A DNA stretch of 12,027 nt. It comes from Candidatus Margulisiibacteriota bacterium. GTDB lineage: Bacteria; Margulisbacteria; WOR-1; O2-12-FULL-45-9. The DNA lies in the NCBI GenBank assembly GCA_018814265.1, contig JAHIZU010000184.1, positions 1 to 12,027 on the forward strand, given 5' to 3'. The notes beneath the pieces were generated by a model. It searched no databases, was not told the origin of the DNA, and saw only the letters and a list, made by a program, of their open reading frames with translations. Position 1 is the stretch's first letter, and each line of letters starts with the position of its first letter. Shown piece after piece: positions 2,859 through 11,991 of this stretch. Both the position numbers and the translations under genes were made by a program.

Positions 2859-2887
2859 ATCATACTACACTGATCTGGTCAGGTCAA
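2859..2887 (-). promoter_or_regulatory. Predicted σ70-type promoter of the hydrogenase operon
   Basis: On the minus strand, TTGACC (2887-2882) is followed by exactly 17 nt and then TATGAT (2864-2859). Each hexamer differs from the bacterial consensus at one base. The -35 box contains the mogA stop codon TGA. Transcription would start near 2852, giving a leader of only about 12 nt before the hydB ATG at 2839. No operator half-sites were recognised. This suggests the hydrogenase genes can be transcribed independently of the upstream cofactor operon. Read-through from upstream is also possible, since no terminator is visible in the gap. Confidence 0.7.
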
Positions 2888-3363
2888 TTCCCGCCACATT
2901 CCGCGCTGCCTTTGGTCAGCACTTCCAGGGCATGGGGGATGACAGGCAGGATGATCTCCAGACATTCTTTGACCGCTTTGGGGCTGCCGGGAAGGTTGAT
3001 TACCAGGCTTTTGCCTCTGTGTCCGGCAACTGCCCGTGAGAGCAGGGCGGCTTTCTTGATCTTATAACTTTCCAGCCTCATGGCTTCTGTGATCCCAGGA
3101 ATTTCACGGTCAATGACTTGCCTGGTTGCTTCTGGGGTAACATCGCGGGGCGATAGACCTGTTCCGCCTGTCGTGAAGACAACGTTACAGCCCCTTTTAT
3201 CTATAAATTCAATAATTGTATTAGAAATGTCCCCAATTTCATCCGGAACGATCACATATTCATAGGAATCAGCTTTGACAGTTTCTTTTATTGTTTTTCC
3301 GCTGAGATCTTCCCGCTGTCCTTTTGAACCTTTATCTGAAACAGTTATTATCCCGACTTTCAT
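2884..3363 (-). CDS. mogA: Molybdopterin adenylyltransferase MogA (MogA/MoaB family)
   Basis: A 159-residue protein of the MogA/MoaB fold, which adenylylates molybdopterin (MPT + ATP to MPT-AMP) so that MoeA can insert Mo or W. The substrate-binding core is visible as TTGGTGLSPRDVTPEAT (64-80), followed by the PGITEAMR region (89-96) and the NLPGSPKAVKE motif (123-133). The length is typical of stand-alone bacterial enzymes. Its ATG overlaps the MOSC stop in an ATGA arrangement, with a good GGAGG 7 nt upstream inside the MOSC gene, so it is co-translated with its neighbour. It closes the cofactor operon, and its stop codon sits inside the -35 element of the hydrogenase promoter. MogA versus MoaB naming cannot be settled by sequence alone; the role is the same here. 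Confidence 0.92.
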   Translation of the reverse strand: MKVGIITVSDKGSKGQREDLSGKTIKETVKADSYEYVIVPDEIGDISNTIIEFIDKRGCNVVFTTGGTGLSPRDVTPEATRQVIDREIPGITEAMRLESYKIKKAALLSRAVAGHRGKSLVINLPGSPKAVKECLEIILPVIPHALEVLTKGSAECGGN

Positions 3364-3815
3364 GTGATAACCTCCAAGGCATCGCCGGCCTTTACCTTGC
3401 CGCTCTTTAATACTTTGGCAAATATTCCCTCACGAGGCATGATGCAATCACCAGCCGCATAATAGATCGCGCAGCGTTCAGGGCATTCCTTGCCGATCTT
3501 GCTGATTTCAAGTTCTGTCTGACCCAGCTTGATCTTTTGCCCGATCTTCAGAGAAAGAAGATCAATGCCCTCGGTCACTATATTCTCGCCAAATGCCCCA
3601 GGCTCAAGTTTTAAGCCTTTGTCTTTCATCTTTTGAATGCTTTCAGCTGCCAGCAAGCTTACCTGGCGTTCGCCGCCCTTAGCGTGATAATCACCTTCAA
3701 CACCAAGATCTTTGATCAAAGCAATATCCTTGACCGCTGTTTTTTGGCCTTTGTCTTGACTTATACAGGTTGCTTTGATGCCTCGACGTTGCTCGGCATC
3801 TTCGACTTGTGACAT
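3360..3815 (-). CDS. MOSC-domain protein in the Mo/W cofactor operon
   Basis: A 151-residue stand-alone MOSC domain (Moco sulfurase C-terminal). This family is thought to handle sulfur or the cofactor late in Moco metabolism; the exact function of the small bacterial members is not established. Visible family blocks are GVEGDYHAKGGERQVSLL (38-55), PGAFGENI (72-79) and the GKECPERC segment with C111 and C115, with C124 after it. The basis for a cofactor role is its position between moaC and mogA; MOSC domains are also found fused to MogA-type proteins. ATG at 3815 is supported by GGAGG 9 nt upstream, which makes the gene overlap moaC by 55 bp. Residues 1-12 encoded in that overlap look non-conserved, and the recognisable domain starts near GIKATCIS. 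Confidence 0.85.
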   Translation of the reverse strand: MSQVEDAEQRRGIKATCISQDKGQKTAVKDIALIKDLGVEGDYHAKGGERQVSLLAAESIQKMKDKGLKLEPGAFGENIVTEGIDLLSLKIGQKIKLGQTELEISKIGKECPERCAIYYAAGDCIMPREGIFAKVLKSGKVKAGDALEVIT

Positions 3816-4243
3816 AGATAAATTCCTCCAATATTCATGTTTTTGTCAACTGCTTTGCACATATCGTAAATGGTCAGGGCGGCGACTGAAACAGCTGTTA
3901 AAGCTTCCATCTCAACGCCAGTTTTTCCGATGCACTCAACTTTAGATTCGATACTAACCTTATCTTCTTTGACCTCAAATGAGAGATCGATATTGGTCAA
4001 TGAAAGAGGGTGACAAAGCGGGATCAGCTCATGGGTCTTTTTTGCAGCCTGGATGCCGGCGATCTTGGCAACAGAAAGGACATCACCTTTTTTCATTTGG
4101 TTGTCTTTGATCTTATTAACGGTTTCTGCCGCTAAAGAGATCGAGCCTCTGGCAACGGCCTTCCTCTTTAAGTCCGGCTTGCCGCCAACATCGACCATTT
4201 TCGCCTTGCCTGATTCGTCCGTGTGACTGAATTTATCCGCCAA
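3761..4243 (-). CDS. moaC: Cyclic pyranopterin monophosphate synthase MoaC
   Basis: A 160-residue enzyme that converts the MoaA product (3',8-cH2GTP) to cyclic pyranopterin monophosphate, the first stable molybdopterin precursor. Conserved blocks are HTDESGKAKMVDV (7-19), KKTHELIPLCHPL (68-80), and GKTGVEMEALTAVSVAALTI (106-125) leading into YDMCKAVDK, whose Asp127 and Lys130 fall in the family's active-site segment. The start is TTG at 4243: it gives the normal family N-terminus, and GGGAG (4254-4258) lies 10 nt upstream; the nearby ATG at 4253 is out of frame. It overlaps moaA by 11 bp and the MOSC gene by 55 bp. The usual KSGGKSG-like C-terminus is replaced by KSKMPSNVEASKQPV, in the stretch that also encodes the start of the next gene. 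Confidence 0.94.
   Translation of the reverse strand: MADKFSHTDESGKAKMVDVGGKPDLKRKAVARGSISLAAETVNKIKDNQMKKGDVLSVAKIAGIQAAKKTHELIPLCHPLSLTNIDLSFEVKEDKVSIESKVECIGKTGVEMEALTAVSVAALTIYDMCKAVDKNMNIGGIYLCHKSKMPSNVEASKQPV
3825..3829 (-). promoter_or_regulatory. Internal SD site for the MOSC gene, inside moaC codons
   Basis: GGAGG, 9 nt before the MOSC ATG at 3815. It is read within the consecutive Gly codons GGA GGA of moaC (residues 139-140, the NIGGI motif). The site fixes the MOSC start and explains the unusually long 55-bp gene overlap. Confidence 0.75.
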
Positions 4244-5033
4244 TTTGGATCATCTCCCTTTTTAAAGATTTATGCCCCTTTTCGGGTTTACATAAGATTG
4301 CTTTTTTAAGACCGGTTTCAATACCTTCTTTCCTTAGGTCAATTTCGTTGTCAGAAAATAGACAGGAACGGATCTTGCTGTCAGCTGTTACTCTCAAACG
4401 GTTACAGATAGAACAATTACCGCCTTCGCCGCCTTCAACCTCATAATAATCACCGCTCTTGAGGTCCATTTTTTTGATAAATCTGACTTTCATCTCATTT
4501 TTTTGAGCAAATTTTTTAAAATTATCTTTTTCATCATCATTAAAGCTATCAACAATCACAGCATTGAGCTTTGTTTTAGTGAAACCAGCTTCTTGGGCCG
4601 CTTTTATCCCGGCTAAAGCGTCAGCCAGGATACCGCCCCGAGTGATTTCCTTATATCTTTCCGGTTGAAGTGTGTCCAAGCTGATGTTTAAACGAGATAA
4701 GCCGGCAGACTTGAGTTCTTTAGCATATTTTGAGAGCAATAGGCCATTGGTAGTCATGGCTAAGGTTTTAACCCCTTCGATCTTTGCTAATCTTTCGACA
4801 AGACCAACTATACCTTTTCGGATCAAAGGTTCACCGCCAGTTAAACGGAATTTGGAAAAACCGAGTTTGACTGCGGTTCTAACGATATCCTCAATTTCTT
4901 CATAGCTCAAAATATCGTCGTGAGATTTTAAACAAATGCCTTTCTCGGGCATGCAATAGGTGCAGCGCAAATTGCACCTGTCAGTTACGGATATCCTTAA
5001 ATAGTAGATATCCCGGTTAAATCGATCTAACAT
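4233..5033 (-). CDS. moaA: GTP 3',8-cyclase MoaA, compact variant
   Basis: A radical-SAM enzyme that starts molybdopterin synthesis by cyclising GTP. The SAM-cluster motif is C20-x3-C24-x2-C27 and the SAM-binding GGEP is at 66-69. The C-terminal cluster ligands C207, C210 and C224 surround the NRLRVTAD stretch (211-218), whose arginines bind GTP in the family. The protein ends in the double glycine (265-266) required for MoaA activity. Anomaly: it is only 266 residues, against about 320-340 for usual bacterial MoaA. The missing part lies between RFIKKMD (184-190) and the second cluster, where about 45-60 residues including the usual G-x-I-G-F-I-S-P-type segment are absent. The frame is open, so this looks like an evolved in-frame reduction and not a broken gene. 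It overlaps moeA by 17 bp and moaC by 11 bp. Confidence 0.9.
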   Translation of the reverse strand: MLDRFNRDIYYLRISVTDRCNLRCTYCMPEKGICLKSHDDILSYEEIEDIVRTAVKLGFSKFRLTGGEPLIRKGIVGLVERLAKIEGVKTLAMTTNGLLLSKYAKELKSAGLSRLNISLDTLQPERYKEITRGGILADALAGIKAAQEAGFTKTKLNAVIVDSFNDDEKDNFKKFAQKNEMKVRFIKKMDLKSGDYYEVEGGEGGNCSICNRLRVTADSKIRSCLFSDNEIDLRKEGIETGLKKAILCKPEKGHKSLKREMIQIGG

Positions 5034-6219
5034 TGATAATAGTTCCTTCCTTTAATTTTTTTATGCCTCTTTTGATCAGCATCACGCCGTCAGCTTGCGT
5101 CAGGGCCTGCATGTGGGCTGAGCCATGGAATTCCAGGGGCAGGGCTGAGGAAACCTGCGACTGAACGTCGCGGTTTCCTGACATCATTATCTTAACAGGA
5201 AAATATTGTTCTCTTTTTGAATCTCTTCGTTGAAAATCTTTTAATAATTTCATGGGAACTAGCTTTTCTTTGGTCTTTCTCCCGACCATCTGGTCAATTG
5301 CCGGGACAACAAAGAGTTCAAAGATAACTAGAACTGAAACAGGATTTCCCGGTAGACCGAAAATTAATTTCTTGCCTTTTGTGCCAAAAACAGTTGGTTT
5401 TCCTGGTTTGATGGCAATTTTGTTGAAATGGATTTTAACACCACAGCTTTTTAACACTTCACGGACAAAATCATAATCGCCGACTGAAACCCCGCCGGAT
5501 AAAAGCAAGATATCGGCTTGAGCCAGGCCCTTTTTGATTAATTTCTTGGTTACAGCAAAATTATCTCTGGCAATCCCTAAATATTTGGCGTCGATATCGC
5601 GCTTTTTAAGCTGAACCAGCAGCATAGAGCTGTTACTGTTCCTGATCTTGCCGGATCCAGGTTTCTTTGATGGCTCAACCAGCTCAGAACCGGTTGAAAG
5701 AACCACAACTTTGGGCTTTCGGGTGACTCTCACCAGAGTTTTACCGACTGTGGCCAGCATAGCAGCTTCCTGCGGCCTGAGTTTTGTGCCTTTCTTCAGG
5801 ATCAGCTGGCCTTTTTTAACGTCTTCGCCGCGTTTGGAGACATTGGATTTTTGAGATTTGTTTGTAACTTGTATCTTGTTACTTGTGATTTGCAGGGTAT
5901 GTTCGACCATGATTACTTGATCTGCACCCTTGGGCAGCATGGCTCCGGTCATGATGCGGGAGCACTGACCGATCTTGATGCTTTTCTTCGGAACTTTTCC
6001 GGCAGGAATGTCTTCAACGATCAAGAAAGTTTTGGAGCCGTCTTTTGAATTAACTGCAAAGCCGTCCATGGCTGAGCGGTCAAAAGGCGGCAGATTAACG
6101 TCAGAATAGATGTTTTCAGCCAGGACGCGGCCCAGGGTATTTGGAAGCTCGACCAGCTCTGTTCCAAGTGGGTTGGCTTTTTTCAGGATCATATTCAGGG
6201 CCTTTTTTGGTTTTATCAT
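5017..6219 (-). CDS. moeA: Molybdopterin molybdenumtransferase MoeA
   Basis: A 400-residue enzyme that uses adenylyl-MPT from MogA and inserts molybdate, or tungstate in W-users, to give the mature cofactor. Family features in order: LPPFDRSAMDGFAV (43-56), the IMTGAMLPKGADQVIM segment (89-104), the MPT-binding TGSELV (176-181), SGGVSVGDYDFV (241-252), KPGKPTVFG (271-279) and the FGLPGNPVSV loop (287-296), then a C-terminal β domain. Residues about 110-126 form an odd polar stretch rich in K, N, S, T and Q, encoded by a repetitive ACAAGT/AACAAG tract (see repeat). The ATG directly follows the tupC stop with no spacing, and AAAGGTG lies just upstream. The position directly after tupABC suggests direct coupling of tungstate import to metal insertion. 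Confidence 0.93.
   Translation of the reverse strand: MIKPKKALNMILKKANPLGTELVELPNTLGRVLAENIYSDVNLPPFDRSAMDGFAVNSKDGSKTFLIVEDIPAGKVPKKSIKIGQCSRIMTGAMLPKGADQVIMVEHTLQITSNKIQVTNKSQKSNVSKRGEDVKKGQLILKKGTKLRPQEAAMLATVGKTLVRVTRKPKVVVLSTGSELVEPSKKPGSGKIRNSNSSMLLVQLKKRDIDAKYLGIARDNFAVTKKLIKKGLAQADILLLSGGVSVGDYDFVREVLKSCGVKIHFNKIAIKPGKPTVFGTKGKKLIFGLPGNPVSVLVIFELFVVPAIDQMVGRKTKEKLVPMKLLKDFQRRDSKREQYFPVKIMMSGNRDVQSQVSSALPLEFHGSAHMQALTQADGVMLIKRGIKKLKEGTIINVRSI
5847..5892 (-). repeat. Repetitive tract inserted in frame into moeA
   Basis: The minus strand reads as alternating ACAAGTAACAAG / ACAAGTTACAAA units, encoding ITSNKIQVTNKSQK-like sequence (MoeA residues ~110-126). The tract differs sharply in composition from the flanks and sits in a loop between conserved MoeA blocks. 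Similar short tracts, giving xVTSxK-type peptides, occur as dispersed repeats in some bacterial genomes, to my recollection. Only one copy is present here. Confidence 0.55.
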
Positions 6220-7203
6220 TTAATACACCTTTATTGATGAAGTTTTAAAGGTCAAGTAGACCTGCTGACCGACGTTTATCCCGAGCTCTTCAAGCGATCT
6301 GTGGGTGATCTGACTGACCAGTTTAATGCCGCAATCCGCGGTCAATTTTGCGATCTTTCCCTCATCGGTTATGCTCCTGACCTTGCCAAGCAGGCAGTTA
6401 CGGGCGCTGGACTGGAACTTTTCTTTGGAAACAATGATCTCTTTTGGATCTATGGAAACCTTAACATTTCCTTGCTTTTCAGTTGCCAGAATGAACGACA
6501 CCTGCTCGTTTATTTTTAGAGTTTTCAGACTATTCTCCCGGATTATCTGGCCGGAAAAGAAGTTTTGATGACTTTGAGGAAAAGCCTGACTGTCTTCCAG
6601 TGTGATGACCTCGTCTGCCAGCTTGAAAGCGTTATTCAAGCGATGGCTAGCGAGAATAACAGTTGTGCCTCTGTTCTTGACCTCAGATAATAGCTGGTTC
6701 AACTGCTCAATGCTGGTCTCATCTAAATTAGCGGTCGGTTCATCTAGCAGAATAACCGGGGTTTCCAGAACAAAAGTTCTGGCCAGGGCGACTTTTTGCG
6801 CTTCACCGCCCGAAAGAGCTGTTGCTTTTTTGTTTAATAACTCAGCCAGACCAAAGATCCGGCTGATCCTGGCAACCTTTTCTTCTTTGCTCGTCTTTAA
6901 TCCAAAAGCAATGTTATTAAAGACAGATGTCCTAAAGATATATGGTTGTTGCAGGCAAAAAGCGATCTGTTGGCGCAGGTTCAACAAACTAGCGTTGAAA
7001 TTGACTTGATCGTCCTGGAACAGGAGCGTTCCAGCTTGCGGTGGTTCAAGCAGGGCCAGGGTTTCAAGCAAAGTTGTCTTGCCCGAGCCGTTCTCGCCGA
7101 CCAGGGCGTATATTTTTCCCTGCTCAAAGGTCATATCAACCGCTTTAAGAACAGGCTGGTCGTTGTAACTTCTGTTTATTTTATTCAATTGGTATGTGCT
7201 CAT
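6220..7203 (-). CDS. tupC: Tungstate/molybdate ABC transporter ATP-binding protein with TOBE-like domain
   Basis: A 327-residue ATPase energising tungstate import through TupB. The nucleotide-binding domain has Walker A GENGSGKTT (36-44), a Q-loop around QQP (85-87), signature LSGGE (130-134), Walker B VILLDEP (150-156) and the switch His187 (SHR). Residues ~259-326 form a TOBE/Mop-like C-terminal domain (KVRSITDEGKIAKL...), which in ModC/WtpC-type ATPases binds the oxyanion and feeds back on uptake. The ATG overlaps the tupB stop in ATGA fashion, and the stop abuts the moeA ATG. Specificity for W over Mo is taken from TupA; the ATPase alone does not distinguish them. Stand-alone TupC proteins are often shorter and without a TOBE domain, so the extension is notable. 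Confidence 0.9.
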   Translation of the reverse strand: MSTYQLNKINRSYNDQPVLKAVDMTFEQGKIYALVGENGSGKTTLLETLALLEPPQAGTLLFQDDQVNFNASLLNLRQQIAFCLQQPYIFRTSVFNNIAFGLKTSKEEKVARISRIFGLAELLNKKATALSGGEAQKVALARTFVLETPVILLDEPTANLDETSIEQLNQLLSEVKNRGTTVILASHRLNNAFKLADEVITLEDSQAFPQSHQNFFSGQIIRENSLKTLKINEQVSFILATEKQGNVKVSIDPKEIIVSKEKFQSSARNCLLGKVRSITDEGKIAKLTADCGIKLVSQITHRSLEELGINVGQQVYLTFKTSSIKVY

Positions 7204-7901
7204 GCTTTTTCTGTCCGGTAATTCACATAAGTGACGAATGAATTCACTGCCAAAGCAACGATCAACAGGATGAGGCCGAGTGCCAGGCCCAAAGCGAATT
7301 CGCCTTTTGATGTTTCCAGCGCGATCGCCGTGGTCATTGTTCTGGTCAGGCCGTAAATATTGCCTCCGAGCATCATGGAAACACCGACTTCGCCGATAAC
7401 CCGGCCAAAACCAGCCATAACAGCAGCCAACAACGGGATCTTGATCTCCCAGAGGAAGATCTTCAGCGCTTCAGCCGGGGAAGCGCCCAGGCCATAAGCT
7501 GTTTTGAGTATTTTTTTCTCTTTGCCCTGAGTAATAGAGTAGACCATAGCTGTGATGATCGGACAGGCGAGGATAAATTGGCCGATTACGATGGCTGTTG
7601 GCGTGAACAAAAGGCCCAAAGAGCCGATAGGCGCGCGTCGGGTTATAAAAGAATAGACCAGCAGGCCGATCACAACAGTTGGTAGGGCCATCAGCGTGTT
7701 CAAGATCGTTGTAACCACTCTTTTCCCTTTAAACTTCCTTATTGCCAGGAACAAACCGAGCGGAACTCCCGCCAGAGTAGCCAGGATCGCTGAGGTGGTC
7801 GCGATCCGAACCGATGTCCAAACGATAAAATAGACATCCGGATCAAAACTAAATATTAGTTCCAATGATTTAAATATTGATTGGCTTAAATAGCTGTTCA
7901 C
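7200..7901 (-). CDS. tupB: Tungstate ABC transporter permease
   Basis: A 233-residue inner-membrane permease with about five hydrophobic segments (near 27-53, 64-86, 96-123, 155-180 and 201-225). The EAA coupling loop is clear at 135-157 (AYGLGASPAEALKIFLWEI...). The GRVIGEVGVSMMLGGNI...TRTMTTAIALETSKGEF block (166-202) is characteristic of TupB-type tungstate permeases and related oxyanion transporters. The start is GTG at 7901, chosen because no upstream start fits and AAGGTG precedes it. This gives a 32-bp overlap with tupA. The 3' end overlaps tupC by 4 bp. Confidence 0.92.
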   Translation of the reverse strand: MNSYLSQSIFKSLELIFSFDPDVYFIVWTSVRIATTSAILATLAGVPLGLFLAIRKFKGKRVVTTILNTLMALPTVVIGLLVYSFITRRAPIGSLGLLFTPTAIVIGQFILACPIITAMVYSITQGKEKKILKTAYGLGASPAEALKIFLWEIKIPLLAAVMAGFGRVIGEVGVSMMLGGNIYGLTRTMTTAIALETSKGEFALGLALGLILLIVALAVNSFVTYVNYRTEKA

Positions 7902-8667
7902 TGTTCACCTTATAGTTATTAATGATCTTTTGACCATCAACTGATGTTAGCCAGCCGATCAGCATCATGGCGCCAAGATAATTGCTTTTATTATGGACTG
8001 CAGGATTGACCGCGATAACTCCGTAGGGGTTATTAAGCACTTTGTCTCCTTCATAACTGATCTCGAGGTCAATTTTATCCATGTAAGCGAGGTATGTTCC
8101 TCTGTCGGCTAACACATAACCTTGTTTTTCGTCAGCTATCTGCAGGGCCGCGCCCATGCCTTGACCAGCGGCATTGTACCAGCTGCCTTTGGGTTCGATC
8201 TTGGCCAGCTGCCAGAGCTCTTGTTCCTTTTGGTGCGTTCCTGAATTGTCGCCGCGGGAAACAAAAGTTGCCTGGGCTTTGGCGATCTTTGTCAAAGCTT
8301 CAGCCGCGTCTTTAGAGCCTTTTACGCCGGCTGGGTCGGCCTTGGGACCGAGTATGATAAAATCATTGTACATCACATCGCGGCGGTTTACGCCAAAGCC
8401 GTTATTAACGAACTTGTCCTCGGCTGCCCTGGCATGGACCAGGACCACGTCCACGTCACCGTTCTCGCCTAATTTGATCGCTTTGCCGGTACCTACAGCG
8501 ATAATATCGACCCTCGCATCATACTGTTTTTCAAAAGGCGGGATCAGGGCTTTTAGCAGTCCAGAATTATCAGTTGAAGTAGTTGTGGCCAGTTTAATGA
8601 CATTTGTGGCCAGAACAGGGGAGATAAAAAGACACAGGGATAATAATAGTAAAATTAACCGTTTCAT
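7870..8667 (-). CDS. tupA: Tungstate-binding periplasmic protein TupA
   Basis: A 265-residue solute-binding protein delivering tungstate to TupBC. The N-terminal signal peptide (MKRL + hydrophobic stretch, likely cleaved after Ala20) sends it to the periplasm. The TupA oxyanion-binding hallmarks are both present: TTTS at 28-31 and SRGDNSGTH at 137-145. Family blocks VLVHARAAEDKFV (75-87) and WYNAAGQGMGAAL (163-175) are also present. The frame stays open to 8757, but the longer version adds 30 residues from repeat and leader DNA and hides the signal peptide. ATG 8667 has an AAAGGAGAAA ribosome site and is the right start. It is the first gene of the import/cofactor operon and follows a structured leader that may sense the cofactor. 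Confidence 0.95.
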   Translation of the reverse strand: MKRLILLLLSLCLFISPVLATNVIKLATTTSTDNSGLLKALIPPFEKQYDARVDIIAVGTGKAIKLGENGDVDVVLVHARAAEDKFVNNGFGVNRRDVMYNDFIILGPKADPAGVKGSKDAAEALTKIAKAQATFVSRGDNSGTHQKEQELWQLAKIEPKGSWYNAAGQGMGAALQIADEKQGYVLADRGTYLAYMDKIDLEISYEGDKVLNNPYGVIAVNPAVHNKSNYLGAMMLIGWLTSVDGQKIINNYKVNSEQLFKPINI

Positions 8668-8670
8668 TGT

Positions 8671-8680
8671 TTTCTCCTTT
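8671..8680 (-). promoter_or_regulatory. tupA: SD site of tupA
   Basis: AAAGGAGAAA ends 3 nt before the ATG at 8667; the GGAG core is 6 nt away. It fixes the tupA start. Its GGAGAA (8672-8677) is exactly complementary to UUCUCC at the 5' edge of the leader (8777-8782), so the leader fold could hide it. Confidence 0.8.
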
Positions 8681-8686
8681 CCAAAA

Positions 8687-8709
8687 TGTCCCTCGACAAG
8701 CTCGGGACA
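8687..8709 (-). repeat. Imperfect palindrome in the tupA leader, resembling a dispersed repeat
   Basis: TGTCCC and GGGACA arms (6 bp) flank an 11-nt centre in the tupA leader; in the minus-strand RNA the hairpin is followed by UUUU. The core GAGCTTGTCGA resembles a short palindromic repeat scattered in many bacterial genomes, which when translated gives CPELVEG or STSSGQ. Here it occupies the position expected for a riboswitch expression platform, as a weak terminator-like hairpin. Confidence 0.6.
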
Positions 8710-8710
8710 A

Positions 8711-8784
8711 GGGAGGTCAGGCCGTTTCCAGCCTGGCCCTGCCGCCCCGCAGACCATTTAACAGGTCTGCGGGGTCGGAGAACC
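8711..8784 (-). promoter_or_regulatory. Candidate Moco/Tuco-type riboswitch aptamer upstream of tupABC-moeA-moaAC
   Basis: The gap between the porin stop and tupA is unusually structured. In the minus-strand RNA, CUCCGA is followed by a perfect 11-bp stem (8745-8755 with 8764-8774, 8-nt loop). Next come GCAGGGCC (8742-8735), a hairpin AGGC-UGGAAACG-GCCU and ACCUCCC ending at 8711. From memory, CUCCGA, GCAGGGCC, GGAAAC and ACCUCCC in this order match the conserved features of the Moco RNA motif. Variants lacking one helix (Tuco) are linked to tungsten users. The genes downstream, tungstate uptake and cofactor synthesis, are exactly the known targets. The alternative is a simple intergenic hairpin or terminator after the porin gene. 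No covariance-model search could be run. Confidence 0.62.
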
Positions 8785-8790
8785 AATCAA

Positions 8791-9990
8791 TTACAGACTG
8801 ATTTGAGTTCTTAACGTTCCTACGAGAGAGGCGTTGCCAGTGCCAACGGTTGATGACATAAGATCGCCAACCAGCATGACATTGCTGTTCCAGTCATAAG
8901 TAACGCCTGCCCACAGGTTGGTTGTTTGGTCATCGCTGACACTGCGGTTTGGATCCCACTGGTCAACACGGCCAAATAATCCCACAACATCTGTGACATC
9001 ATAGAGTCCGGCAACGCTAATACCTAAACCACCCAGCCCATAAAGAGCTTCAAGGTAGGTTTTGTAGTTGTCGGCTTTGTAACCAACCAAGAGGTTGGCT
9101 TGTTTGCTGCCGGTGCCGTTCTGATCAATGTTGGCAGCATGAGCGCCAACGCCGACAGTTAAGCCGGGCATGACTTCAGAATCCAGCTTGATGCCAACGT
9201 CCTTGGCGGAGTTGGTTTCAGCAGCGGTGAATCCTGTGCCGTTCAAGCCAGTGACAACATAATTGGTTTTGAATCCAATAAGATCGAGTGAGCCCAAAAG
9301 ACCAACACCAAAGTCTGCGGTTGTCAATAAACCCCGGTCAGATTGTAAACTGGCAGCTACAACTCTTAAGCCTAGATAGCCATCAACCCAGCCTGACCAA
9401 TATGTTGGTTGTAAGCCGATTCGAGCGTTTACAGTGGTGCCAGGAATTATTCCTTTCTCAAGAACGTTGTTTAGATCAACATAAGCACATTTTAGAAATG
9501 TTTCTAGCATGCCAGTTGATCCGCCACGGGTAGAATCAAGGATGACCTTGCCGGAGGCGTTATCGCTGATCGAACCTTGCAAGGTTAGATAGGCGCGGGT
9601 GATATCAAAATTATTGATAATTGTGCTGTTGGATAGTCCCTTTTGATATCGGGCATAGATCAAGGCGGAAAGAGGAGCGCCAGTCCCAACCGGGCCGCTG
9701 CTGACTCCGCCAGCTTTGATCATCCGCTGGATTTCCTCTCTGGAAACGATTTTCTTGTCTATAGAATTAGCCATTTTTTGGAGGAAGACCGCGGTCTCAT
9801 AGCGGGTGATCTGTTGCGTTCCGCGGAAAGTGCCGTCCGGATAACCTTTGGTTATCCCGAGTTTAACTAAATCATATACCGCAGGGGCTGCCCAGTGATT
9901 ATCAGGCACATCCTTAAATTTGATTTGGGCAGAGGCAGCAAGCCCCATCACAAGAACTAATAAAACTAAAAGCGCAAGACTTTTTTTCAT
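8791..9990 (-). CDS. Outer-membrane porin-like protein with N-terminal SLH domain
   Basis: A 399-residue secreted protein. The signal peptide (KK, then a Leu/Val-rich core, cleavage probably after Ala21 in ASA) is followed by one SLH domain, residues ~25-77 (FKDVPDNHWAAPAVYDLV...ITKGYPDGTF...ITRYETAVFL), which anchors to peptidoglycan or associated polymer. Residues ~105-399 show alternating, Gly- and aromatic-containing strands typical of a β-barrel; the last residue is Leu, unlike the usual terminal Phe. SLH-porins of this design are known from Cyanobacteria and other diderms. The start was taken as ATG 9990, because AAAGGAG (9999-10005) precedes it and it yields a proper signal peptide. 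An in-frame ATG at 10032 would add 14 residues. The substrate is unknown; a role in passing formate or oxyanions is only a guess from context. Confidence 0.85.
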   Translation of the reverse strand: MKKSLALLVLLVLVMGLAASAQIKFKDVPDNHWAAPAVYDLVKLGITKGYPDGTFRGTQQITRYETAVFLQKMANSIDKKIVSREEIQRMIKAGGVSSGPVGTGAPLSALIYARYQKGLSNSTIINNFDITRAYLTLQGSISDNASGKVILDSTRGGSTGMLETFLKCAYVDLNNVLEKGIIPGTTVNARIGLQPTYWSGWVDGYLGLRVVAASLQSDRGLLTTADFGVGLLGSLDLIGFKTNYVVTGLNGTGFTAAETNSAKDVGIKLDSEVMPGLTVGVGAHAANIDQNGTGSKQANLLVGYKADNYKTYLEALYGLGGLGISVAGLYDVTDVVGLFGRVDQWDPNRSVSDDQTTNLWAGVTYDWNSNVMLVGDLMSSTVGTGNASLVGTLRTQISL

Positions 9991-9998
9991 TATTTTAT

Positions 9999-10005
9999 CT
10001 CCTTT
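9999..10005 (-). promoter_or_regulatory. SD site deciding the porin start
   Basis: AAAGGAG lies 8 nt before ATG 9990. A second, weaker G-rich element (GGGGGGTGAG, 10041-10050) could serve the in-frame ATG at 10032, but that start would put 14 polar residues before the signal peptide. Confidence 0.7.
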
Positions 10006-10066
10006 CTTTAATAAAGCGAACATTTTTGCCATAATTTTTTCTCACCCCCCTTTTTTGGCAATTTTA

Positions 10067-10924
10067 CTACTCTTCAGCGCCCAAAGTTTTTAACTGGGCG
10101 TAGGTGAAGACCGGTCCATCGGTGCAGCAATATTTATGTCCAATTAAACAATGCCCGCATTTGCCTATGCCGCACTTCATGTGCATTTCCATGGTAGTAA
10201 TTATATCATCCGGGCGCATCTTTTTTTCTTCTAATGTTAAGTTGGTGAATTTGATCATGATAGGAGGGCCGCAAAGGTAGGCAATGGTCTTGTCCGGATC
10301 AAATTCGATCTTGCTAAAAAGGGTAGTTACCACGCCAACATTTCCCTTCCAGCCGGAAGCAGGAGAATCAACTGTTTGTAATACGGAAACATCCTCAATT
10401 TTGCTCCAGCTTACAAGTTCATCAGAATAGACACAGTCGGTGGGGCACTTTGAGCCATAAAGGACCCAGATCTTCCCATAATCTTTTCGGTGATGAAAGA
10501 TAGCGTTCATGACCGAGCGCAGAGGTAATAGCCCAATTCCACCGGCTACAAAAAGGATGTCTTTGCCTTTGTATTCTTGCCAGGGGAATGAATTCCCGTA
10601 GGGGCCGCGGATAAAAAGCTCCTCGCCTTCTTTTAGTTCATGAATAGCATTGGTTAGGGACCCGGCCTTGCGAACAGCGATCTCCAGATCGTCGCCTCTT
10701 TCAAAAGTTGAAGTAATGGAAATAGGGGCTTCCCCTACGCCAAAGAGAGAAACCTGGACAAATTGGCCGGGTTTATACTCAAGGGCTTTTCCGTCTTTAA
10801 ACTTTAGGGTGTAGTGCTTTACTTCGGGGTTGAGATCGCGGATCTTGGTTATTTCTGCTGCGCGCGGCAGGTATTCGTTTTCAGCTCCTTTTTTTGTTTT
10901 GACTTTGGTTGAAAATTTTGGCAT
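10067..10924 (-). CDS. Sulfhydrogenase-gamma-like FAD/NAD(P)H oxidoreductase subunit, second copy
   Basis: A 285-residue diaphorase-type subunit, paralogous to the hydrogenase γ subunit at 931-1767. FAD motifs are PGQFVQVS (52-59) and GEAPISITS (64-72); NAD(P) motifs are FVAGGIGLLPLRS (125-137) and CGPPIMIKF (218-226). The C-terminal [2Fe-2S] ligands are C251, C256, C259 and C267. It follows the second β subunit by 32 bp, with a strong GGAGG at 10933-10937. No hydrogenase subunits accompany this copy; instead the gene upstream of the pair ends like a formate dehydrogenase catalytic subunit. The inferred role is to connect that enzyme to the NAD(P)H pool. Related proteins also act in sulfite reductase and Flox/Hdr complexes, so the partner is not proven. 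Confidence 0.9.
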   Translation of the reverse strand: MPKFSTKVKTKKGAENEYLPRAAEITKIRDLNPEVKHYTLKFKDGKALEYKPGQFVQVSLFGVGEAPISITSTFERGDDLEIAVRKAGSLTNAIHELKEGEELFIRGPYGNSFPWQEYKGKDILFVAGGIGLLPLRSVMNAIFHHRKDYGKIWVLYGSKCPTDCVYSDELVSWSKIEDVSVLQTVDSPASGWKGNVGVVTTLFSKIEFDPDKTIAYLCGPPIMIKFTNLTLEEKKMRPDDIITTMEMHMKCGIGKCGHCLIGHKYCCTDGPVFTYAQLKTLGAEE

Positions 10925-10939
10925 TGTTTTTTCCTCCTT

Positions 10940-10956
10940 GTCCGCCGAAGGCGGGC
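10940..10956 (-). other. Stem-loop in the gap between the second β and γ genes
   Basis: CCGCC (10942-10946) and GGCGG (10950-10954) pair around GAA (UUC in the minus-strand RNA). The stem extends to 7 bp through G10940-C10956 and one G·U pair. It begins at the β stop codon and ends 2 nt before the γ SD. There is no U-run, so it is not a plain terminator. It may tune relative expression or protect the mRNA, or be a small repeat. Confidence 0.6.
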
Positions 10957-11991
10957 TTAAGCTAATGAAGCCATTACTTCTTTAATATCGATCTTGACCG
11001 GGCAGGCGTCCAAACATCTGCCGCAGCCAACACAGCCGGAATCCCCGAATTTTTCCTTGTCCCACTCAAGTTTGCAAAAATAACGGTTGCGGGTGCGTTC
11101 ATCCCTTTTGCCCTTGGGATTGTGGCCGCCTGCCATGCGGAAGTAACCACCCAGGATACAGGAGTCAAGGATGCGCTTGCGCATGCCTTCGCCAGCCTTC
11201 TGGTGGTCAACCACGTTAAAGCAGGTGCAAGTCGGGCAGGTATAATTGCAGGCGCCGCAGGAGATACATCTGTCGGTAATCTCAAGCATCATTTTTTCAT
11301 TGAGCGCTTCGCGGCCCATATTTCCTAGAGCCTTGTCCTTATTAATATTTTTGCCAACAGGGAGTTTCTCGGCTTTCTTTTTAATTTCTTCGAATTTCTT
11401 TGAGTCAGCATCAGTTGCGTCTTCAAATAGGGCTTTGTTGTCAGCCACTATCTTTTCGCCTTTTTTGCTGCCGACGTTCACCAGGAAGGCTCCGTCGCCA
11501 AGATCAGTTAGCTGAAGGTCAAAACCTTCTTCGGCGATTGGGCCATGGCCCATGGTGGCGCAGAAGCAATTGTCATTAGGGGGTGTGACGCAAGCCAGGC
11601 TGATAATGGTCAGCTTTTCCCTGGCCTTAGTGTAATAGAAATCAGCAAATTCCCGCTGGCCAAAGAATACATCATTATATTGTATGCCTGCCACATCACA
11701 GGCCGGAATGCCAAACAGCACGGTTTCTTGCGATTCATCCACCGTTGAAAGTTTAGTATTGCCTTTGCTCTTCTTGAAATTTATCATGTTCTCGACCTGG
11801 CCAAAGAGCGCTTCGCGCACTGCCGGCATCAGGGGCTTAAAATGCTTTAAGATAACTTTTGATGGGTCAGAAACAGCTTTGAGGTAAACATCCTTGTACT
11901 CATCGGCTTGGGGAGCAAGTACTGTGGCCTTTTTCTTAAGAGCCTCAATAAGTTTGATTAAGTTTTGGGTTTTGATCTTTAAGTTTTGCAT
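10957..11991 (-). CDS. Sulfhydrogenase-beta-like two-[4Fe-4S] subunit, second copy
   Basis: A 344-residue iron-sulfur protein of the sulfhydrogenase-β / anaerobic sulfite reductase A family, paralogous to 1769-2839. The N-terminal domain carries the family's FGIPACDVAGIQ stretch (93-104), matching FGVHTCDLAGIQ in the other copy. Clusters are C242, C245, C248, C252 and C320, C323, C326, C330. Additional Cys residues (C134, C142, C144) lie in the middle. The ATG overlaps the stop of the preceding gene as TAATG, and the GGAGG SD lies inside that gene's last codons, so production is coupled to the putative formate dehydrogenase. The first 12 residues are low-complexity (Q, N, L, K) and come from a direct-repeat tract; the true domain starts near residue 13. 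The inferred function is electron transfer to the γ flavoprotein encoded next. Confidence 0.9.
   Translation of the reverse strand: MQNLKIKTQNLIKLIEALKKKATVLAPQADEYKDVYLKAVSDPSKVILKHFKPLMPAVREALFGQVENMINFKKSKGNTKLSTVDESQETVLFGIPACDVAGIQYNDVFFGQREFADFYYTKAREKLTIISLACVTPPNDNCFCATMGHGPIAEEGFDLQLTDLGDGAFLVNVGSKKGEKIVADNKALFEDATDADSKKFEEIKKKAEKLPVGKNINKDKALGNMGREALNEKMMLEITDRCISCGACNYTCPTCTCFNVVDHQKAGEGMRKRILDSCILGGYFRMAGGHNPKGKRDERTRNRYFCKLEWDKEKFGDSGCVGCGRCLDACPVKIDIKEVMASLA

Follow-up and report, generated by a model that had tools for sequence, protein, structure and literature searches.

The closest described systems to the element analyzed here are the Moco RNA motif (RF01055) and its P3-less Tuco subtype. 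In the original survey 58 of 176 Moco RNAs lacked P3 and were tied to tungsten use, and section 11 of that paper describes a near-perfect match between P3-less RNAs and tungsten genes (Regulski et al., 2008; PMC2408646); both the P3-less form and the suggested link to tungsten have therefore been in print since 2008. For the moaABCDE leader of E. coli, reporters were unaffected by tungstate (PMC2408646). In the class Candidatus Saganbacteria, FdhA and TtrA were reported by a 2019 study, which also suggests that the FdhA of Riflemargulisbacteria depends on molybdenum or tungsten; the word riboswitch is absent from its main text (PMC6349859).

We analyzed a stretch of 12,027 nucleotides (the window) from a genome of this class, here called G000. 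RF01055 matches the minus strand at positions 8792-8658 over the complete model (1-135) with 61.2 bits (gathering score 36; E 5.4e-13), and no other Rfam family matches anywhere in the window at the gathering thresholds. A preliminary description of the DNA had proposed a Moco RNA, and the covariance-model scan bears this identification out. The gap between the upstream stop codon (ending at 8791) and the tupA AUG (8667) is 123 nt, exactly as described there, and is indeed packed with paired elements: the minus strand folds at -65.1 kcal/mol against -43.6 ± 3.8 kcal/mol for shuffled sequences (z -5.66), with 0 of 200 shuffles as stable. All of the elements then listed were found on this strand, namely CUCCGA (8780-8775), the 11-bp stem, GCAGGGCC, the GGAAAC hairpin and ACCUCCC. 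The RNA is a new member of the described Moco riboswitch class, in Candidatus Saganbacteria.

The Rfam and class alignments give the architecture of the element (8658-8792, minus strand, as for all features below), in which P1, P2, P4 and P5 are present and the P3 stem is absent. P1 pairs UUCUCC (8777-8782) with GGAGAA (8672-8677), and within its 3' strand lies the Shine-Dalgarno core GGAG (8677-8674), which ends 6 nt ahead of the AUG of tupA. P2 (8745-8774) is a perfect 11-bp stem (8774-8764/8755-8745) with an 8-nt loop, and 10 consensus positions of its distal part are unmatched in the Rfam alignment. Comparison with P3-bearing relatives places a 5-nt junction (8740-8744) at the would-be P3 site. 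P4 (8714-8739) carries a GAAA tetraloop at 8728-8725, and the P2 receptor region is reduced to CCU..AUGG around the short loop. P5 (8681-8712) consists of a 2-bp CC/GG stem with a palindrome in its loop. The junction of the four stems contains the conserved CUCCGA, AGGG, CCUCCC and GGAAAGGAG. In the unconstrained minimum-energy fold, part of the P5 insert pairs with the flank of the P4 region and the consensus P5 is not formed.

Aligning the leaders of related genomes, as the preliminary description had proposed, revealed compensatory changes in P2 and P4. Across the 13 RNAs of the class, 88.7% of the cells in P1, P4 and P5 are paired, and 33 cells are changed on both sides compared with 12.7 ± 3.5 after shuffling (covariation 0.359 versus 0.174 shuffled). 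With P2 included, the eight P3-less RNAs of the class have 40 double-changed cells against 16.7 ± 3.1 shuffled. Double changes occur in 7 of 11 P4 pairs in the larger set, and in 8 of 11 P2 pairs and 5 of 11 P4 pairs in the smaller. Both double-change counts drop sharply when partners are slid by 1-3 columns, a control that favors the structure because this was derived from one of the sequences. The count of pairs with any double change is not clearly above shuffles (150 of 500 shuffles reach it for the 13 RNAs and 55 of 500 for the eight), so that it is the cell counts and the slid controls that carry the support. Among the class RNAs P1 has no double change and P5 is invariant, and neither adds covariation support. 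Thus, P2 and P4 covary among relatives. The RNA of genome G007 (L012:1501-1611) has a GCAA tetraloop and has lost the P2 receptor bulge; GCAA members without a receptor bulge were described in section 5 of the 2008 paper (PMC2408646).

Downstream of the RNA lies the eight-gene row tupABC-moeA-moaAC-MOSC-mogA that had been read from the letters; its content and order are upheld by Pfam and NCBIfam and are kept in relatives. It comprises tupA, of the tungstate-binding protein family (7870-8667; NF041772, 254 bits, cut-off 400), the permease gene tupB (7200-7901; NF041773, 201.5 bits, cut-off 320) and a tupC/wtpC-like ATPase gene with a TOBE domain (6220-7203; Pfam, with NCBIfam matches below cut-offs), followed by moeA (5017-6219), a short moaA (4233-5033), moaC (3761-4243), a gene for a MOSC-domain protein (3360-3815) and one for a mogA/moaB-like molybdopterin adenylyltransferase (2884-3363), all five assigned by Pfam and NCBIfam. 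Although no specific NCBIfam name fits the first two genes better than TupA and TupB, the scores lie under the curated cut-offs, so tungstate specificity is a family assignment rather than proof. In the list of open frames, with start codons as predicted, the eight frames overlap or abut. The tupA frame could begin as early as an AUG within the RNA (8757), but the Shine-Dalgarno core stands 6 nt from the start at 8667.

Two further features of the region were noted. MoaA has 266 aa and only a partial Mob_synth_C domain (34.7 bits, Pfam cut-off 37.4); by eye it retains both cysteine clusters and the C-terminal GG, and the MoaA proteins of relatives with tup operons align across 266-267 aa. Two paralogous sets of hydrogenase-type electron-transfer subunits (labeled hydB/hydG here; 168-2839 and 10067-11991) flank the operon, one on each side, and both are kept in G020 and G004.

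Because the 3' strand of P1 holds the Shine-Dalgarno core of tupA, cofactor binding should block translation of the eight-gene row, and we consider it very probable that this riboswitch is a translational OFF switch for the tupA operon that senses the molybdenum or tungsten pterin cofactor. This reading builds on what was observed: the RNA belongs to the family and has its architecture, P2 and P4 covary, P1 overlaps the ribosome site, and the gene order is conserved. The identity of the ligand and the sign of the response are inferred by analogy with E. coli moaA and the Moco family. When enough pterin cofactor with molybdenum or tungsten is available, the RNA would fold around it and P1 would close, hiding the tupA Shine-Dalgarno sequence and lowering tupA translation. 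As the frames abut or overlap, control of tupA translation could spread by coupling, and repression would then extend through tupB, tupC, moeA, moaA, moaC and the MOSC gene to mogA, so that metal import and cofactor synthesis would stop. With scarce cofactor, P1 would open and the operon would be translated. Co-transcription of the row, as also assumed in the preliminary description, and coupling along it are what we infer from this arrangement.

The RNA directly follows a co-directional gene for an SLH-domain porin-like protein (8791-10032; open-frame list and domain scans), the stop codon of which lies 10 nt before CUCCGA. At all 13 loci of the class the RNA starts 0-30 nt after a co-directional frame of at least 90 codons. 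The upstream gene is of porin type in the three cases scanned (PF07396 in G027 and G007, the SLH protein in the window); a similar C-terminal end of the upstream protein is found in eight relatives, and G020 has a hydG-like gene instead. In two of the relatives scanned (L183:167-1228 and L193:7254-8189) the gene just before the RNA encodes an outer-membrane porin of the phosphate-selective Porin_O_P type, possibly an outer-membrane route for tungstate or molybdate.

A -10-like hexamer (8790-8795, 5 of 6 positions) overlaps the upstream stop codon; it is weak alone and has no good -35 element. A perfect TATAAT begins 12-14 nt ahead of CUCCGA at four class loci. Over the whole set, the -10-like hexamers of the 22-nt stretch preceding CUCCGA sum to 67 against 57.9 ± 2.2 for composition shuffles (0 of 2000; offset 2 nt early in G024). 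A promoter and terminator scan of 8400-9100 on the strand of the RNA gave one promoter-like site, inside tupA and thus not at this hexamer, and no terminator, with counts not clearly above shuffles. A purely intercistronic model, prompted by the uniform spacing, was set aside since the class hexamers exceed shuffles, which makes a promoter of its own, overlapping the stop codon, at least as likely. The switch may thus have its own promoter over the stop codon, be reached by read-through from upstream, or both. A literature search on riboswitches inside operons gave nothing relevant by title.

Of the 31 genomes of Candidatus Saganbacteria, 13 carry RF01055, each time above the cut-off, and no further genome does when 57 genomes, including other classes of the phylum, are considered. 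According to tblastn, 11 of the 13 RNAs (10 relatives and the window) precede tupABC-moeA-moaA-moaC-MOSC-mogA; those of G015 and G017 precede moaA-moaC-MOSC-mogA and moeA, with no tup genes within the fetched stretch. The Tup type of the window is shared by G020 and G007 (TupA 71-74% identical). The other eight tup operons have a second type, the TupA of which is 46-51% identical to that of the window and, in the two tested, is likewise named TupA by NCBIfam under the cut-off (227 and 234 bits).

The RNA is present in 9 of 10 genomes with a PF00384 match at E < 1e-70 compared with 4 of 21 others (Fisher p 0.0003, uncorrected for kinship). In G007 and G010 the PF00384 protein is a formate dehydrogenase alpha subunit (TIGR01591, 894 and 864 bits, above cut-off), and the weaker match in G015 is to a TtrA-like protein, which scores 482 bits against a cut-off of 1750. 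The G000 assembly, 80.5% complete, has no PF00384 or PF01568 match, so the user of the cofactor is not seen there. Its contig ends just past hydB2, a gene that comes immediately after a frame of 681-705 aa matching PF00384 in G007, G020 and G004; by synteny, fdhA of G000 would sit just past the contig end, beside hydB2. These data place a Moco riboswitch in a candidate lineage near Cyanobacteria and tie it to formate dehydrogenase and probable tungstate uptake.

Two genomes deserve separate mention. G024 (L013, L059) has the lowest-scoring RNA of the class (42.1 bits), in which P1 pairs are broken, and PF00384 matches this genome only over a short stretch (E 0.001) that contains two stop codons; this switch may be decaying together with its enzyme. 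G030 is the only genome of the class with a strong PF00384 match and without a Moco RNA, and this match (G030:C100:3799-5073) contains one in-frame TGA, possibly a selenocysteine codon.

The preliminary description had overlooked a 23-nt palindrome (8688-8710) that is inserted in the P5 loop between CCUCCC and AUUUUGG. Its 17-nt core occurs at 20 places in the genome with at most one mismatch, the window's included, and a reversed control at none; a 23-nt pattern over the palindrome gives four matches with up to three mismatches, again including the window's. The core has matches in 22 of 30 genomes, counting that of the window. Eleven of the 20 places belong to a longer two-hairpin element, and the window copy is of the single-hairpin kind, nearest to a copy on contig C254. 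The dispersed two-hairpin palindromic element of G000 is about 75 nt long, with 13 matches to a 45-nt pattern, 10 of them exact (L202-L209, L211-L213), and no family name was found for it. P5 also carries a hairpin at this place in G028, of a related kind, and in G024, of a different kind.

What sets this RNA apart is that its P5 arm is one copy of a repeat dispersed through the same genome, and the simplest reading of the palindrome would be an insertion at a tolerated site; the repeat then points to P5 as the arm of the aptamer in which insertions are tolerated. Among the papers listed in literature searches, judged by their titles or the opening of their abstracts, none treats the letters of the palindrome as a dispersed repeat; none, by title, concerns an insert in a riboswitch, one of them being a general paper on palindromic repeats (PMC3733652). 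Long P5 loops as such are not exceptional: a pattern scan of genome contigs for P5 loops of about 12-42 nt gave at least 119 stretches. Among these, 59 of the 80 fetched have CUCCGA within 170 nt upstream, and RF01055 was found in 17 of 18 re-scanned stretches with CUCCGA, a subset of those listed. Several such long-P5 Moco RNAs (L075, L077, L098, L106 and others) lie before moeA-moaA-moaC-MOSC-mogA in Bacteroidetes-type records, with no tup genes.

The palindrome also invites other interpretations. Together with the U residues behind it, it could form an intrinsic terminator inside the aptamer, which would make the element a transcriptional attenuator: a GC-rich hairpin in the P5 loop is followed by AUUUU, and in G028 and G024 there is likewise a hairpin at this place, followed by a run of five U. 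However, the U run is native to P5, as G010, G015 and G017 have CCUCCC-AUUUU-GG without any insert, the P5 loop is only 5-6 nt long in 10 of the 13 class RNAs, and the terminator scan detected no such site on the strand of the RNA. We rejected this model on account of the scan and the native U run, and regard attenuation at P5 as very unlikely. Still less credible is that the repeat broke the aptamer and left a decayed, non-functional copy. The score of the window RNA is only the ninth among the 13 of the class, and the reduced tip of P2 adds to the insert in P5, but 26 alignment columns are invariant in all 13 RNAs including this one, the pairs of P1 are standard in all six cases, and many other Moco RNAs have P5 loops of 12-42 nt.

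A different question is whether the P3-less architecture makes the RNA respond to the tungsten form of the cofactor only. The preliminary description had suggested a Tuco variant; P3 is indeed absent, but the tungsten type was not established, and the state of P3 did not split tungstate from molybdate contexts. In favor of a tungsten-specific switch are, besides the lack of P3, the Tup-family transporter downstream, the absence of P3 in all three operons with the transporter type of the window (G000, G020, G007), and the association published in 2008 (PMC2408646). Against it, alignment and folds place P3 in five RNAs of the class (G027, G010, G012, G004 and G023; the other eight are P3-less), and all five precede the same tup row as six P3-less ones, so that 5 of 11 tup operons in Saganbacteria carry the stem. 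G015 and G017 combine a P3-less RNA with a fetched stretch devoid of tup genes, G015 encoding the TtrA-like protein. The AFOR family was found in none of the 31 genomes of the class, with the G000 assembly 80.5% complete, and formate dehydrogenase could use either metal. Of 90 RNAs sampled from Clostridia, 78 lack P3, nine have it and three are ambiguous, so that the P3-less state is the base rate there. By tblastn, P3 is absent from 23 of 26 RNAs upstream of tup genes and from three of four scorable RNAs upstream of mod genes (a fifth being ambiguous), which gives no association of P3 with the transporter (Fisher p 0.45 for tup versus mod and 1.0 for tup versus all others). P3-less RNAs precede ModA genes scoring above the curated NCBIfam cut-off (L296, L264), and P3-bearing ones precede TupB-like permeases (L222, L225 and L244; best named match TupB, under the cut-off), two of these three RNAs also being flanked by a formate transporter gene on their other side. 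As P3 does not sort by transporter, the window RNA cannot be called Tuco-specific from its architecture alone, and we consider tungsten specificity possible, if doubtful. The mod group is small and the sample skewed and non-independent, which leaves the 2008 rule weakened rather than disproved.

The Clostridia sample was drawn from 391 genomes, 54 of which had matches (130 in total); 90 of the 91 best-scoring matches were taken, one at a contig end being left out. The sample is therefore top-scoring and mostly P3-less, and RNAs sharing a genome are non-independent. P3 was called with a model built from the eight P3-less Saganbacteria RNAs, which replaced a regular expression catching 33 of the 90 loci; its 95 matches, minus three weak extras and two duplicates, correspond to the 90 RNAs. 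The nine P3-bearing calls comprise eight by script and L226, which had no script call, by eye. L273, L277 and L291, for which the script gave one stem, were kept as ambiguous owing to weak or oddly long matches, and L236, L290 (two stems by script) and L309 (none) were set as P3-less by eye, their junctions being 4-5 nt. Gene context covered up to about 1.5 kb at the 30 loci taken first and up to about 4 kb at the remaining ones. Moco RNA matches occur in closely spaced pairs on one strand at two loci: L242 (G147:C39:494-613 and 1190-1305) and L267 (33-171 and 232-342), the second match of the latter being weak (19 bits, E 0.0075).

Conceivably, P3 is no metal discriminator but a strut gained or lost within like operons, with the aptamer reading the shared pterin part; we offer this tentatively, as a rather unlikely alternative. 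If true, one riboswitch class would serve either metal, and the transporter and MoeA would make the choice. The tupABC-moeA-moaA-moaC-MOSC-mogA operons of Saganbacteria, with P3 in five genomes and without it in six, are a natural experiment, and such matched operons allow a direct test of P3 as a discriminator between molybdenum and tungsten. The operon tree, with backbone supports of 20-67, is not robust enough for counting how often P3 was gained or lost.

Compared with the described systems, the RNA of the window resembles the Moco RNA motif (Regulski et al., 2008; PMC2408646) in its P1-P2-P4-P5 architecture, conserved junction, GAAA tetraloop and ribosome-binding site in P1, and in its context of genes for molybdenum or tungsten transport and cofactor synthesis. 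It differs from the motif in the dispersed palindrome in its P5 loop, the missing distal part of P2 and its position directly behind an upstream gene, and its host, Candidatus Saganbacteria, lies outside the groups named in the 2008 abstract. With the Tuco subtype (PMC2408646) it shares the lack of P3 and a place before tungstate-transporter-family and MPT synthesis genes; in contrast to that subtype, P3 is found in sister operons with identical gene order, and its absence therefore does not mark a tungsten context here. The E. coli moaABCDE leader is alike in its translational repression, predicted for the window, with the ribosome site apparently within P1. Unlike the window RNA, it has P3, the deletion of which abolished regulation (PMC2408646), and it serves moa genes, whereas the RNA described here serves a tup operon.
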